Of a stretch of DNA of 64,000 nucleotides, positions 46,313 through 51,790 are shown piece after piece. Every line of letters begins with the position of its first letter. Positions within the stretch are counted from its first letter, which is position 1. The stretch is taken from assembly GCA_028281665.1 (NCBI GenBank), contig JANQJK010000001.1, positions 62,001 to 126,000 of the forward strand, given 5' to 3'. Below the pieces are notes generated by a model, which was given only the letters and a program-made list of their open reading frames with translations, did not search any database and was not told the DNA's origin. The stretch comes from Hyphococcus sp. Its GTDB lineage: Bacteria; Pseudomonadota; Alphaproteobacteria; Caulobacterales; Parvularculaceae. The position numbers and the translations under genes are program-made.

Positions 46313-49030
46313 TTATGCGGCCGCACCAGCGCCAAGGGCCGCGTAAAGCGCCTTCTCGATTTTTTTCAGCCGCTGCCGGTCGGTGATTTTTTCGCCGCGC
46401 GCATCGGTCAGATAGAAGGCGTCGACCGCCCGCTCGCCGTAGGTCGCCACATGAGCCGAGGCGATGGAGACGTCAAGCGCACCAAGGGCGGAGGCGATAT
46501 CGTAAAGCAGGCCGGGACGGTCGAGCCCTTCGGCCTCGAACACAACCGCATCGCGGGACGCGTCCCGCTCCATGCGAACCGCCGGCTCCACATGAAAGAT
46601 CTGACGGCGGTCGCCAAGGCGGCGCTTCAGGTCCGGTTTCTTTTTCGGCGTCGCACGGGCGGCCGACAAGAGCGCCTCGTGCAGTCGTCGGGCCAGTAAC
46701 GGATCGTCGGCCGGCGTATCGTCCGCAGACTGAACGGAGAATATGTCAAAGGCGCGCCCGTCCGCGGTCATCATGGCCTGCACCGAGCGGACGCTCAGTC
46801 CCTGGGTGGCGACGGCGCCGGCTATATCCGCGAGGAGCCCCGGCCGGTCATCCGCATAGATAATGCATTCAAGGTCGCCGTCGCGCGGCGTCACCCTGAC
46901 GGCGGCATCGGCGCGGTCTTCCGCCGCTGCGCGGGCGAGGTAAGCGAAACGCACAATAATGTCGGAATCAACGCATCGCAGCATTTCGTTTGTAAGCTGC
47001 GCGAGAAACGCATCCCGCTCCGCATCGGACCAGTCGGCGAGGCGGGCGCGGGCCTCCTTCCGGGCGAGCGCCGCACGGGATTGCAGCCGCGCCTGGAGCG
47101 CCGTCTCGCCGCCCTCAAACCAGGCAACGGATGATTCATAAAGTTCCGTAAGCTGACGGCGAATAACCTCGTCCCAGGAATACCGTCCGACGACCCGCAA
47201 ATGACAGGTGGACAGAACAACCATCAGGTCGAGCCGTTCGACCGCGCCGACCGCTTCGGCAAAGCGCGCGATCGTGTCGGCCTCCGTCAGGTTGCGCCGC
47301 TCCGCCGTGCGCACGAGCATCAGATGATTGGCCGCGCCCCATGACGCAAGCGCAGCCTCGTCGCGATCAAGTCCCAGACGGCGCACAATGCGCCCGATCA
47401 GTTTTTCGCATTCAACGGGCGACTTGCCCTTGATGGTCCACGCCGTTTCGTGAAGGAACAACGCAAGCGTGATCACATAAGGGTTTGGCGCCTCTTTGAC
47501 GACGCGCGTCGAGACCGGGTGTTCCTCGGCCAGCCGACCGAGGCGGATCTCCCGATATACGCTGAGGGCGCGCAGCAACTCTTCATCAAGGGTATACTGC
47601 CGATACAAACCGTACTGGATGCGCCCGACGATGTCTCCGAAGGCCGGGACATATTTGCCCAGAAGACCGATCTCGGTCATGACCCGGAGCGTGCGCACCG
47701 GGTTTTCGTTGCTTTCAAGAATGGCCTTGAACAGCGCCGCGACGACCGGATCCTTGCGAACATCGGACGTTACGTCCGTCGCGTGTTCGGCGATAAGCGC
47801 CAGCGCGTCGGGGTGAAAGTCGATCTTCGGATGTTTGGAAAACGCCCGAAAATAGCGAAAGAAATCGCGCGGGGTTTTCCGCGCGCGCGCGGCGCTTTCG
47901 AAATCAAGACGCCCGCCGCGTATGCGGACATTCGGTTTGCCCGGCGCTTCGTCCGATTGCAGTTTCTTAGGCAGCAGGGCCGGCAGGCGCGGCAGCCGTT
48001 TCGTGCTTTCTTCTTCGAGGCGCGCGCAGAGGATGCGCGTCAGGCGTCCGGTCTCGACAGCGGTCACAAAGTAATGGCGCATCAGCCTTTCCGCGGCCGA
48101 CATGTCCTTTCTGTCCGCATATCCGAGGCGTTCTGCAACGGCGGGCTGAATATCGAAGGTCAGATGTTCGTCGGCGCGGCCGCGCAGATCGTGAAGATGA
48201 ACGCGCACGGACCACAAAAACCGTTCCGCCTTGACCAGCGCGCGCACATTGGCGGCGCCCAGAATCTTGTCGATTTCAGCACCGTCGCCGATGGCGCCGT
48301 TATAGACGTAGTTATAGATCCAGCGGATTGTCTGAACGTCCCGCAGGCCGCCTTTGCCTTCCTTGATATCCGGCTCGGCGAGATATCGTGTGGCGCCGAC
48401 CGCTTCCTGCCGCTCGCCCTGCTCGGCAAGCTTGGCGGCGACAAACTGCGCCGTCGTCCGTTTACGGAATTTCCGGAAGTCGGCGTCGAACTTCGAGTAC
48501 AGGGGCTTCGCGCCGCACAGGAACTTCATGTCGAGATAGGCGGTGCGCGCGATCACGTCCTCCCTGGCGAACTGAAGCGCGCTTTTCGGCGTGTGAACGC
48601 CGTGACCGACTTTAAGGCCGCTGTCCCACAGGGGATACAGCATGGCGTCGAGCACCGGCCGCAGCGCCGCATCGTCGCCGGGGGAATGGAGAAAGAGCAG
48701 GTCCACGTCGGAAAAGGGCGCCAGCTCGCCGCGCCCGAAACCGCCCACCGCGCAGATGGCGATAGAGGCATCGCCCGGCGCCGCAATGGCGAAGACCGCC
48801 CTGATCAACGCTTCGATCGAGCGGGCGTACCGCGCAGCGATGCGGTCGCCGCGATCGGCGTGCTTCATGGCGTCAAGACGCGCCCCGACGACGGCCCGGC
48901 GCATAACCGCGCCAACGGCGCCGGTCTGACGGCCGGCGCGCTCGTCAGCGGTCGCATCCGCCAGTTCCGCAAGGATTGCCGCGTGATCGAACGTCGCCCG
49001 TTCGTCCGCACTGCGCGCTGAAGCGTTCAT
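46313..49030 (-). CDS. glnD: PII uridylyltransferase GlnD with a degenerate uridylyl-removing HD domain
   Basis: GlnD uridylylates PII proteins when glutamine is low and removes UMP through an HD domain when glutamine is high. The 905-aa protein has the transferase motif GGFGRGELAPFSDVDLLFL (about 96-114) intact, and two ACT domains at the end (CIIYADDRPGLLADIAGAVATQGL and FEAEGLDRPGLLYDIASALGAL). The middle HD domain lacks its usual metal ligands. The family YxxYTVDEH is YRQYTLDEEL (476-485), HDIxKG is HETAWTIKG (527-535), and the late Asp of LTVADI is LSTCHL (606-611). The UMP-removing activity may be lost or altered. It follows mutS by 9 bp. Confidence 0.95.
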   Translation of the reverse strand: MNASARSADERATFDHAAILAELADATADERAGRQTGAVGAVMRRAVVGARLDAMKHADRGDRIAARYARSIEALIRAVFAIAAPGDASIAICAVGGFGRGELAPFSDVDLLFLHSPGDDAALRPVLDAMLYPLWDSGLKVGHGVHTPKSALQFAREDVIARTAYLDMKFLCGAKPLYSKFDADFRKFRKRTTAQFVAAKLAEQGERQEAVGATRYLAEPDIKEGKGGLRDVQTIRWIYNYVYNGAIGDGAEIDKILGAANVRALVKAERFLWSVRVHLHDLRGRADEHLTFDIQPAVAERLGYADRKDMSAAERLMRHYFVTAVETGRLTRILCARLEEESTKRLPRLPALLPKKLQSDEAPGKPNVRIRGGRLDFESAARARKTPRDFFRYFRAFSKHPKIDFHPDALALIAEHATDVTSDVRKDPVVAALFKAILESNENPVRTLRVMTEIGLLGKYVPAFGDIVGRIQYGLYRQYTLDEELLRALSVYREIRLGRLAEEHPVSTRVVKEAPNPYVITLALFLHETAWTIKGKSPVECEKLIGRIVRRLGLDRDEAALASWGAANHLMLVRTAERRNLTEADTIARFAEAVGAVERLDLMVVLSTCHLRVVGRYSWDEVIRRQLTELYESSVAWFEGGETALQARLQSRAALARKEARARLADWSDAERDAFLAQLTNEMLRCVDSDIIVRFAYLARAAAEDRADAAVRVTPRDGDLECIIYADDRPGLLADIAGAVATQGLSVRSVQAMMTADGRAFDIFSVQSADDTPADDPLLARRLHEALLSAARATPKKKPDLKRRLGDRRQIFHVEPAVRMERDASRDAVVFEAEGLDRPGLLYDIASALGALDVSIASAHVATYGERAVDAFYLTDARGEKITDRQRLKKIEKALYAALGAGAAA

Positions 49031-49039
49031 GCCGGCCCC

Positions 49040-51790
49040 TCAGGGTTCGTCGTCATGGCTCAGCGCTTTCAGGCGATAAAGCGTCTCAAGCGCTTCGCGC
49101 GGGCTCAGGGCATCCGGATCAATCTCGCCGAGCGCATCAATGACAGGCGACGGACCGCGCTGTTCTGGCGCCGGCGGCGCTGCGGCGAACAGGGGCAACG
49201 CGCCGACGCCGGTCTGATCTTCCCGCGCTTCGAATTGCGCCAGCAGGCTTTGCGCGCGCGCAATCACCGGCGCCGGCAAACCGGCGAGCTTCGCAACGGC
49301 GACACCGTATGAGCGATCCGCGGCCCCGGCGCCGATTTCGTGCAGGAACACCACATCGCCTTTCCACTCGCGCACCTTCATAGACATGTTTACAAGGCGC
49401 GGCGCCTTTTCCGACAGCGCCGTCAGCTCATGATAGTGGGTTGCAAACAGTCCCCGGCATTTGACTTTATCATGAAGATATTCAACCGCGGCCCAGGCGA
49501 TCGAGAGCCCGTCAAACGTCGACGTGCCGCGCCCGATTTCGTCAAGCACCACAAGGGACCGCCCGCTCGCCTGATTAAGGATCGCCGCGGTCTCGACCAT
49601 TTCCACCATGAAGGTCGAGCGACCGCGGGCGAGGTCGTCGGCGGCGCCGACCCGTGAGAACACCCGGTCGACAATGCCGATATGGGCGCGCGCCGCGGGG
49701 ACGAACGCCCCCGCCTGGGCAAGGATCGCCAGCAACGCATTCTGGCGCAGGAACGTCGACTTGCCGGCCATGTTGGGTCCGGTAACGAGCCAGAGGCGCG
49801 CATCGTCATCCTCTGCGAGGAGACTGTCATTGGGAACGAACGCGGCCTCGCCTGCGGTTTTGAGCGCCCGTTCGACCACCGGATGGCGACCGGCGGAAAT
49901 TTCAAACGCCCGGGACACATCGACAATGGGCCGCGCATAATTCTCCGTCGCCGCCAGTTCCGCGAGCGCCGAGCCCACATCGATTTCGGCGATGGCGTTC
50001 GCGGCGGCCGCGATGGCGTCGCGACGACAGGCGACAAGCCCGGTGAGCCGGCCATACAGTTCCAGCTCCCGCGCGAGCGCTTCGTCGCGAGCGCGGGAAA
50101 TCTTGGCGTCGAGATCGGCAAGTTCGCCGGTCGTAAACCGCACCGCGCTCGCCAGCGTCTGGCGATGAATGAACATGTCGCTATGGGGCGGCGCCATCAG
50201 CGCGTCGCCGCGCGCGGCCGGCGCCTCCACGAAATAGCCGAGCACATTATTGTGTTTGATCTTCGCCGACTTAACGCCGGTCAGTTCGCGGTACTTGGCT
50301 TCGAGGCCGGCGATAATCCGCCTGGATTCATCGCGCAGGGCGATCACCGCATCGAGGCCCGGGTCGTACCCTTTTGCGATAAAACCGCCATCGCGGGCGA
50401 GTAGCGGGGGCGCCTCGCTCAATGCAGCCGTCAGCTCACTGATGAGTTCCGAAAAGCCGACGCCTTTCGCATCGTCCAGCGCCGCGAGGGCGCGCGCCGT
50501 CGCTTCCGGCAGCGAAAGCCCGGCGCCGCGCAGACCGGCTGCAAGATCGCGCGCGGCCGTAAGCCCGTCGCGAATGGCAAGGAAGTCTCGCGGCCCGCCG
50601 CGCTCCAGCGCAAGACGGGACTGCGCGCGGGCGATATCCGGGGCGTTCTTCAACAAGTCGCGCATGCGCCCGCGCAGGGCGCCGTCGCGCTCAAAAAACT
50701 GAACGGCGTCGAGGCGGGCGTTGATCGCATCGGCGTCAGTCAGCGGCGCGGCAATGCGGGTCGCCAAAAGCCGCGCGCCCGGGCCCGTCATCGTCCGGTC
50801 AACGGCCCAGAGAAGCGATCCCTTGCGCGCGCCGGCCTGCGTTCTGGTGATTTCAAGGGACGCGTGGGTCGCAGCATCGATCGCCATGGCGCCCGCCGCA
50901 TCGACTTTTTTCGGCGGATGAAGACTGGGCGCGCGCCCGGCCTGGGTCAGCTCCACATAGCTCAGCAAAGCGCCCAGCGCCGCGCATTCCGCCCGGTCAA
51001 AATCGCCAAAGGCGTCGAGGGACGCAATCTCGTAAACATCGAGAAGGCGGCGTTGCCCTGCGGCCGAATCGAAATGCTCCGCCGGCAGAACGGTGACGGC
51101 GTCAAGCGCGCCCGCGGAGGCGAGCGCGGCGCGCCACGGATCGTCCTCGTCGCCCAGCCCCGGTGCGAGCAGCTCCTTAGGCGCAACCGCAGCCAGCACG
51201 GCGGCGACGTTCGTCGTCGTGACGCGTCGCACACTCACTTCGCCGGTCGAAACATCGACCCAGGCAAGCGATGCGTCTTCGCCGCCGCGCAACAGGGAAA
51301 GCGCTGCGAGAAAGTTATTGCTGCGCGCGTCAAGCAGCGCATCCTCAATAATGGTGCCGGGCGTCACGGTACGGACGATTTCCCGCCGCACCACCGATTT
51401 CGATCCGCGTTTTTTTGCTTCCGCCGGGTCTTCCATCTGCTCGCATATGGCGACCTTGAAGCCGGCGCGGATCAGTTTGGCCAGATAGGAATCGTAAGCG
51501 TGAAACGGCACGCCGCACATGGGAATGTCGTCGCCATTATGCTGCCCGCGCCTCGTCAGCGTAATGTCGAGGGCGCGCGCGGCGGCAATCGCGTCGTCAA
51601 AGAAAAGCTCGTAAAAGTCGCCCATGCGATAGAAGAGGAGCGCATCGCCCGCCTGTTCCTTGATGGACATGTATTGCGCCATCATCGGCGTCGGCGCTGT
51701 TGCGGATTTCCGCGCGCCGGCGCGGCTGGACGCGGCGACGCCAGATGCGGCCGGGGAATTTGATTTCTTTTTTTGCGTCGCGTCTGTCAT
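49040..51790 (-). CDS. mutS: DNA mismatch repair protein MutS
   Basis: MutS recognises mismatches and starts repair. The 916-aa protein has an N-terminal Ala/Ser-rich extension, then the mismatch-binding domain with the conserved Phe-x-Glu (RMGDFYELFFDDAI). The connector and lever regions, the ATPase Walker A GPNMAGKSTFLRQNALLAILAQ, Walker B SLVVLDEIGRGTSTFDGLSIAWA, and FATHYHELTALSE follow. It leads the mutS-glnD-murJ-trpS group. The start is the first ATG giving the family N-terminus. Confidence 0.98.
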   Translation of the reverse strand: MTDATQKKKSNSPAASGVAASSRAGARKSATAPTPMMAQYMSIKEQAGDALLFYRMGDFYELFFDDAIAAARALDITLTRRGQHNGDDIPMCGVPFHAYDSYLAKLIRAGFKVAICEQMEDPAEAKKRGSKSVVRREIVRTVTPGTIIEDALLDARSNNFLAALSLLRGGEDASLAWVDVSTGEVSVRRVTTTNVAAVLAAVAPKELLAPGLGDEDDPWRAALASAGALDAVTVLPAEHFDSAAGQRRLLDVYEIASLDAFGDFDRAECAALGALLSYVELTQAGRAPSLHPPKKVDAAGAMAIDAATHASLEITRTQAGARKGSLLWAVDRTMTGPGARLLATRIAAPLTDADAINARLDAVQFFERDGALRGRMRDLLKNAPDIARAQSRLALERGGPRDFLAIRDGLTAARDLAAGLRGAGLSLPEATARALAALDDAKGVGFSELISELTAALSEAPPLLARDGGFIAKGYDPGLDAVIALRDESRRIIAGLEAKYRELTGVKSAKIKHNNVLGYFVEAPAARGDALMAPPHSDMFIHRQTLASAVRFTTGELADLDAKISRARDEALARELELYGRLTGLVACRRDAIAAAANAIAEIDVGSALAELAATENYARPIVDVSRAFEISAGRHPVVERALKTAGEAAFVPNDSLLAEDDDARLWLVTGPNMAGKSTFLRQNALLAILAQAGAFVPAARAHIGIVDRVFSRVGAADDLARGRSTFMVEMVETAAILNQASGRSLVVLDEIGRGTSTFDGLSIAWAAVEYLHDKVKCRGLFATHYHELTALSEKAPRLVNMSMKVREWKGDVVFLHEIGAGAADRSYGVAVAKLAGLPAPVIARAQSLLAQFEAREDQTGVGALPLFAAAPPAPEQRGPSPVIDALGEIDPDALSPREALETLYRLKALSHDDEP

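Follow-up and report, generated by a model that had tools for sequence, protein, structure and literature searches.

The window analysed here is a stretch of 64,000 nucleotides on contig C27 of a Hyphococcus sp. genome (G000; 3.35 Mb, estimated to be 100% complete). Its minus strand carries glnD, flanked by mutS and murJ. "Family" stands for f1, the GTDB family to which the window genome belongs, taken as Parvularculaceae. A search of 62 family genomes gave a GlnD match in 54, and 53 of these GlnDs were read. Counts per alignment column refer to 68 GlnDs, comprising these 53 and 15 of the 24 found in four sister families; G024, in which the gene is broken across two frames, and L052, a further contig copy from G034, stand outside the counts. 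The genes and features of interest are:

49040..51790, minus strand: mutS, upstream of glnD (named by eye and by shared gene order)
46313..49030, minus strand: glnD, an intact ORF specifying 905 amino acids
44668..46260, minus strand: murJ, downstream of glnD (named by eye and by shared gene order)
48698..48745, minus strand: nucleotidyltransferase motif, residues 96-111 (GGFGRGELAPFSDVDL), from the alignment of family GlnDs
47156..47623, minus strand: degenerate HD domain, residues 470-625, from alignments and hhalign
47600..47602, minus strand: R477, replacing an invariant His (FNMYHxYT); Arg in 53/53 family GlnDs
47579..47581, minus strand: E484, replacing the His of YTVDEH; His kept in 40/53 family GlnDs, Glu in 2/53
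47447..47452, minus strand: H527-E528, replacing the HD pair; Asp in 0/53 family GlnDs
47201..47206, minus strand: C609-H610, replacing the Ala-Asp of ADI; Cys in 53/53 family GlnDs, Asp in 0/53
46331..46888, minus strand: two ACT domains, approximately residues 715-900, from Pfam

The product of glnD passes the NCBIfam equivalog model TIGR01693 with 646.6 bits (cut-off 519.4); the best-scoring model is PRK05092 at 757 bits, below its own cut-off of 959. Two named relatives were found, in a "Marinicaulis sp." MAG (87% identical) and in an uncultured Parvularculaceae MAG (81%); NCBI taxonomy lists Marinicaulis under Hyphococcus, Parvularculaceae. A check for a second GlnD in the window genome using PF08335 revealed none, the remaining matches falling at two points of a single GlnE ORF. 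The gene order in the window, mutS-glnD-murJ-trpS, recurs in five of six other family loci (L057, L058 and the loci of genera g3, g6 and g7, the last of which, L186, has about 2 kb extra between glnD and murJ), and the g2 locus (L185) has mutS-glnD only. It is complete in two of four sister-family loci (L182 and L183; families f3 and f5), present without a mutS match in the stretch in L181 (f2), and reduced to glnD alone in L184 (f4). The window gene is judged to be a vertically inherited, true orthologue of GlnD and no stray paralogue.

GlnD is the textbook case of the writer and the eraser of a protein tag united in one enzyme. The Escherichia coli enzyme consists of a transferase, an HD domain and two ACT domains, a layout that is also found in the window GlnD; in known GlnDs the ACT domains are responsible for glutamine sensing. 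A Pfam scan of the window protein gave GlnD_UR_UTase followed by two C-terminal ACT stretches, together with a sub-threshold match to NTP_transf_2. Residues 96-114 read GGFGRGELAPFSDVDLLFL and contain the intact transferase motif, which is the same as that of E. coli K-12 GlnD (b0167, L131; 27% identical when aligned over the whole length). GG[FY]G followed by SDxD is present in all 53 family GlnDs, the window protein included. Residues G96, G97, G99, S107, D108 and D110 are identical in these 53 and in the 15 sister-family GlnDs, and R100 is found in 52/53 and 14/15, respectively. A preliminary description of this DNA had called the transferase motif and both ACT domains normal.

The central domain is a different matter. 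The metal ligands of HD domains are His, His-Asp and Asp. In the window GlnD the corresponding stretches read YTLDEEL (479-485), HETAWTIKG (527-535) and LSTCHL (606-611), as had been reported for this gene. Direct alignment confirmed the canonical residues in E. coli GlnD; nothing in the window protein corresponds to its HD pair, its HDIAKGRGGDHS core or its VADI. The Asp of the HD pair (position 528) is found in 15/15 sister GlnDs versus 0/53 family GlnDs (47 Glu, 6 Gln), the distal Asp of ADI (position 610) in 15/15 versus 0/53 (38 His, 12 Arg, 2 Tyr, 1 Asn), and the Lys of HDxxK (position 531) likewise in 15/15 versus 0/53. Two residues ahead of YTVDEH, at position 477, the His which is invariant in the 15 sisters has given way to an Arg that is itself a new invariant of the family; C609, invariant in the family, is seen in one of the 15 sisters as well. 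The HD metal ligands in the central domain, by which a bifunctional UTase/UR is recognized, are thus missing from the window GlnD and from its family.

Two of the lesions originally proposed need to be qualified. The His-to-Glu change in YTVDEH is present in the window protein but is no lesion of the family, and the HETAWTIKG core does lack GGDHS, but GGDHS is the E. coli form and is not general: all 15 canonical rows from the same taxonomic order carry Gln where E. coli has the His (GDQ in 11, GGQ in 3, RGQ in 1), so that this His is no general marker. The replacement of the distal Asp by His was correctly identified, and it belongs to a loss common to the whole family. On the column counts, the Asp losses are read as old changes and the His-to-Glu change at 484 as a recent one.

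Although the HD domain has no Pfam match at E ≤ 1 in a scan of the window protein alone, hhalign matches it over its full length to the profile of canonical GlnD HD domains (probability 100, E 1.1e-42, 153 columns), which from sequence comparison points to retention of the HD fold. The closest solved relative of the canonical profile (E 3.8e-9) is an A-adding enzyme (PDB 3wfo/3wfp, where it is listed as poly A polymerase), whose HD domain has the DEH and HD motifs in common with it. No solved chain matched the window GlnD itself at E ≤ 0.01.

Could the altered domain still remove UMP, with changed ligands (E528, H610, H527, H569) or by different chemistry? E528 (47/53) and H610 (38/53) are residues whose chemistry would allow metal binding, no family GlnD departs from C609 or R477, and the domain is under purifying selection (see below); with His527 in 37/53, the altered site could still bind metal. 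Against this, none of positions 484, 527, 569 and 610 has His family-wide, and Gln, Arg, Pro, Tyr, Phe, Thr and others are among the residues seen at these positions. The former ligand positions vary within the family (His484 in 40/53, His527 in 37/53, His569 in 25/53), and drift of this sort among relatives is unlike a working metal site. We consider residual removal by this domain unlikely. As a guess, R477 and E528 form a salt bridge in the old metal pocket.

In a maximum-likelihood tree of 82 GlnDs the 53 family proteins form one clade (SH-aLRT 100, stem length 0.88), the tree having been built by a quick method that gave warnings about long outgroup branches and uneven composition. With all 53 in a single clade the loss looks ancestral, and one ancestral loss of the HD ligands would appear to account for the family pattern. 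An assembly or sequencing error was considered and ruled out, as the same lesions recur in 53 GlnDs, one from each of 53 family genomes out of the 54 that gave a GlnD match. The two comparisons that had been suggested as checks gave these answers: E. coli GlnD and the 15 sister GlnDs are canonical, the 53 family GlnDs are degenerate in the HD core, and no family relative with canonical motifs, which would have pointed to misassembly, was found among these 53.

The rarity of this state was assessed with the canonical HD profile in two samples of genomes at least 95% complete, in each of which the window family is represented by G000 only. In the Pseudomonadota sample, which was evaluated by score, with motifs read for those genomes also read elsewhere, 284 of 299 genomes match; the window genome stands at 6.9e-32 and G270 at 2.5e-22, and the other 282 are at 1.6e-43 or better. 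In the class sample 209 of 290 genomes match. Fourteen weak matches from this sample were read, with G102, G200 and G260 (about 2e-54, about as weak) lying outside the set; the HD pair is present in 14/14 and the distal Asp in 12 of the 13 that are readable there (G311 is masked at this point). Among class genomes without a profile match, a search for GlnD with the window protein gave 0 matches in 66 of 81 searched. By the scores in the Pseudomonadota sample the HD degeneration of the window GlnD is judged to be beyond chance. Two other proteins deserve mention. The alphaproteobacterial GlnD of G162 (L166) has Asn for the distal HD Asp with the HD pair kept, possibly another partial loss. The GlnD-like protein of G270 (L169, family f22) has the reverse pattern, with the H, HD and D kept and the transferase motif broken.

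The degenerate HD domain is under purifying selection. Its dN/dS is 0.034-0.130 in the family pairs that gave a value (nine of ten), similar to that of the transferase domain (0.049-0.107, with a value again in 9/10), and one of three sister-family pairs gives 0.25-0.38 for all domains; with dS near or above 1 in many pairs, these values are rough. Such ratios are a measure of constraint, without telling which function is constrained. Measured against the transferase, the HD domain has also diverged further in the family than in the sisters: its identity is 0.35 in the family versus 0.56 in the sisters where transferase identity is 0.4-0.5, and of 0.67 versus 0.75 at 0.7-0.8; at 0.6-0.7 the gap is small (0.59 versus 0.62). 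As far as sequence can tell, a domain that has lost catalysis and kept a role would look like this. The preliminary description had held that the HD metal ligands were lost, and the data strongly support this as an old, family-wide state under selection.

The target of GlnD was examined next to the enzyme. The window genome encodes GlnB (L034, contig C16) and GlnK (L035, contig C6, beside a gene that is amtB-like by eye), both with Tyr51, and a GlnE of 968 amino acids with both nucleotidyltransferase motifs (by eye). Tyr51 is present in 42/42 GlnB/GlnK proteins read from 26 GlnD-bearing family genomes. The genome behind one of these (G083, source of L147) has 6% contamination; L155, a divergent PII-like protein in which Tyr51 is absent, weak PII-like matches (E about 1e-13 and weaker) and the strong match G008:C58 fall outside the 42. 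In genus g4 there is no GlnD match in any of three genomes (89-95% complete), and residue 51 of GlnB is Leu in all three. In genus g2, GlnD, PII and GlnE were all unfound in four of ten genomes (G028, G078, G079 and G081, three of which are 99% complete), apparently a loss of the whole PII cascade as a unit; PII and GlnE are both present in the six g2 genomes that carry GlnD. Taken together, the g2 and g4 data indicate that the PII acceptor goes with the writer and stays where only the eraser is gone. The independent events are few, the three g4 cases of Tyr51Leu likely going back to a single change and the g2 losses probably to a few. Contrary to the pattern, G007 (84% complete) has no GlnD match and has kept Tyr51 in both of its PII proteins; its glnD may be unassembled rather than absent.

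This co-variation of PII Tyr51 with GlnD lends indirect support to a continued use of the transferase, although Tyr51 may be conserved for PII's own contacts. It also bears on the suggestion that the whole of GlnD is decaying and the transferase is disused too, as the failure to find GlnD in 4/10 g2 and 3/3 g4 genomes might be taken to mean. Those genomes are missing the whole of PII or its Tyr51 too, and in the family GlnDs that were read the transferase motif residues are intact (53/53), with the low dN/dS of that domain given above. We regard general decay as very improbable.

If GlnD no longer erases, another protein (a different HD protein or a phosphodiesterase) might deuridylylate PII, giving a reversible cycle with two enzymes, a scheme which is compatible with the site loss in GlnD. 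Retention of Tyr51 in PII would be favoured by a reversible switch, and a search of the window genome for other HD-domain proteins, limited to the PF01966 family, gave five matches, none of them GlnD. By eye these are ordinary-looking: a dGTPase, a RelA/SpoT protein and three generic HD hydrolases. They are located on contigs C28, C21, C28, C26 and C8, and none is at the GlnB (C16) or GlnK (C6) locus or on C27 with glnD. A second eraser is possible, but we are inclined to doubt it.

The erasing half of GlnE, which removes adenylyl groups from glutamine synthetase, is a nucleotidyltransferase domain and is named a phosphorylase in NCBIfam; reversal chemistry therefore exists in this superfamily. 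By this precedent the GlnD transferase could run backwards, clearing PII-UMP by phosphorolysis or pyrophosphorolysis. Its motif is without any change pointing to reversal, and we hold this to be quite unlikely.

Many family genomes also contain a GlnE paralogue. In G000 it is full-length (C18:138985-141801, corresponding to L176:4983-7802, minus strand; Pfam GlnE 2.6e-17). The SDxD transferase motif is absent in all five of the proteins read by eye, that of G000 included, which has GPLELF, and the protein looks like a conserved pseudo-GlnE. Strong matches were obtained in 27/28 g1, 9/9 g6, 1/1 g5 and 2/3 g3 genomes, and any matches in g4, g7, g8, g9 and part of g2 were weak. The one g8 genome and the one g9 genome in this search are each 78% complete. 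G029 (g3) has GlnD and PII, and its only GlnE match is weak and lies inside the paralogue without the catalytic motif. The paralogue was entertained as a replacement eraser but abandoned as a general explanation, since the HD loss extends to g2, g7, g8 and g9, where its matches are weak or missing.

The explanation we favour, with a probability of roughly 0.7, is that the window protein is a working uridylyltransferase with a pseudo-HD domain, the ligands of which would have been lost in the ancestor of the family. GlnD would still add UMP to Tyr51 of PII. The retained HD fold would probably connect the ACT domains to the transferase, structurally or allosterically, and glutamine would at most act by braking the forward reaction. 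PII-UMP might then be cleared mainly by growth dilution or turnover and not by GlnD hydrolysis; this is the weakest step of the scheme and a tentative one. The original proposal that this bacterium may only add UMP to PII is supported in part, strongly as to the HD ligand loss and, through Tyr51 co-variation, indirectly as to transferase use. Across the family, the tag-adding enzyme has been kept and the predicted metal-binding site of the remover lost, and the tag is probably cleared otherwise or never.

The Rhodospirillum rubrum enzyme, likewise alphaproteobacterial, acts on GlnB-type PII at Tyr51 and removes UMP with its central HD domain (PMC3480911); the ligands of that site are gone in the window GlnD. 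PMC3480911 and PMC4285133 locate the two activities of the R. rubrum enzyme at separate sites and assign removal to the central HD domain. Actinobacterial GlnD, which adenylylates GlnK (PMC4285133), is also a lineage variant, but there the change described is in the nucleotide and not in the remover. For ordinary GlnD, PMC6490700 describes stimulation of UMP removal by glutamine. In E. coli a Tyr51Ala GlnK responds on AmtB almost as the wild type does (PMC4285133), from which we infer that cells might live without rapid erasing. The further idea of a switch that cannot be reset is more tentative: PII-UMP may be reset by dilution or proteolysis, another hydrolase or reversal of the transferase.

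Proteolysis of GlnK is known in Corynebacterium glutamicum. Among the matches listed from open-licence PMC articles, taken by title and abstract opening, none dealt with a naturally occurring GlnD that lacks its uridylyl-removing site, nor with GlnD in Parvularculaceae; the single match listed for Parvularcula with GlnD was a Brucella gene survey, and the available part of PMC3612183 contains nothing on the HD domain.

A lineage in which the writer is kept and the eraser's ligands are lost, under selection, offers a direct test of whether erasing is needed. The same lineage makes it possible to test the resetting of PII and a possible second part, apart from catalysis, that the HD domain may play in glutamine sensing. 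For annotation, a label such as "bifunctional uridylyltransferase/uridylyl-removing enzyme" may be mistaken across an entire family. In a bolder version, which we consider doubtful, the Parvularculaceae might have rebuilt the PII cascade around pseudo-enzymes: GlnD as a writer only, its HD domain a metal-free relay with a possible R477-E528 salt bridge at the place of the metal, PII-UMP cleared by turnover so that PII would record past nitrogen stress instead of the present state, and a non-catalytic GlnE paralogue added in several genera.

Lastly, two gene neighbourhoods of PII were noted. In the window genome an oxygenase-like gene (by eye; L059:9300-9983) shares four bases with the end of glnB. 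It was rejected as a replacement modifier, being near glnB in 6/15 loci only, all of genus g1, and absent from that position at the g1 locus of G020, at the single loci of g3-g7 and at those of three sister families. At L061:4321-6253 a PII-like gene is situated between a gene for a 323-amino acid membrane transporter and a carbonic-anhydrase-like gene, and this cluster, named by eye, resembles the SbtA-SbtB bicarbonate clusters.
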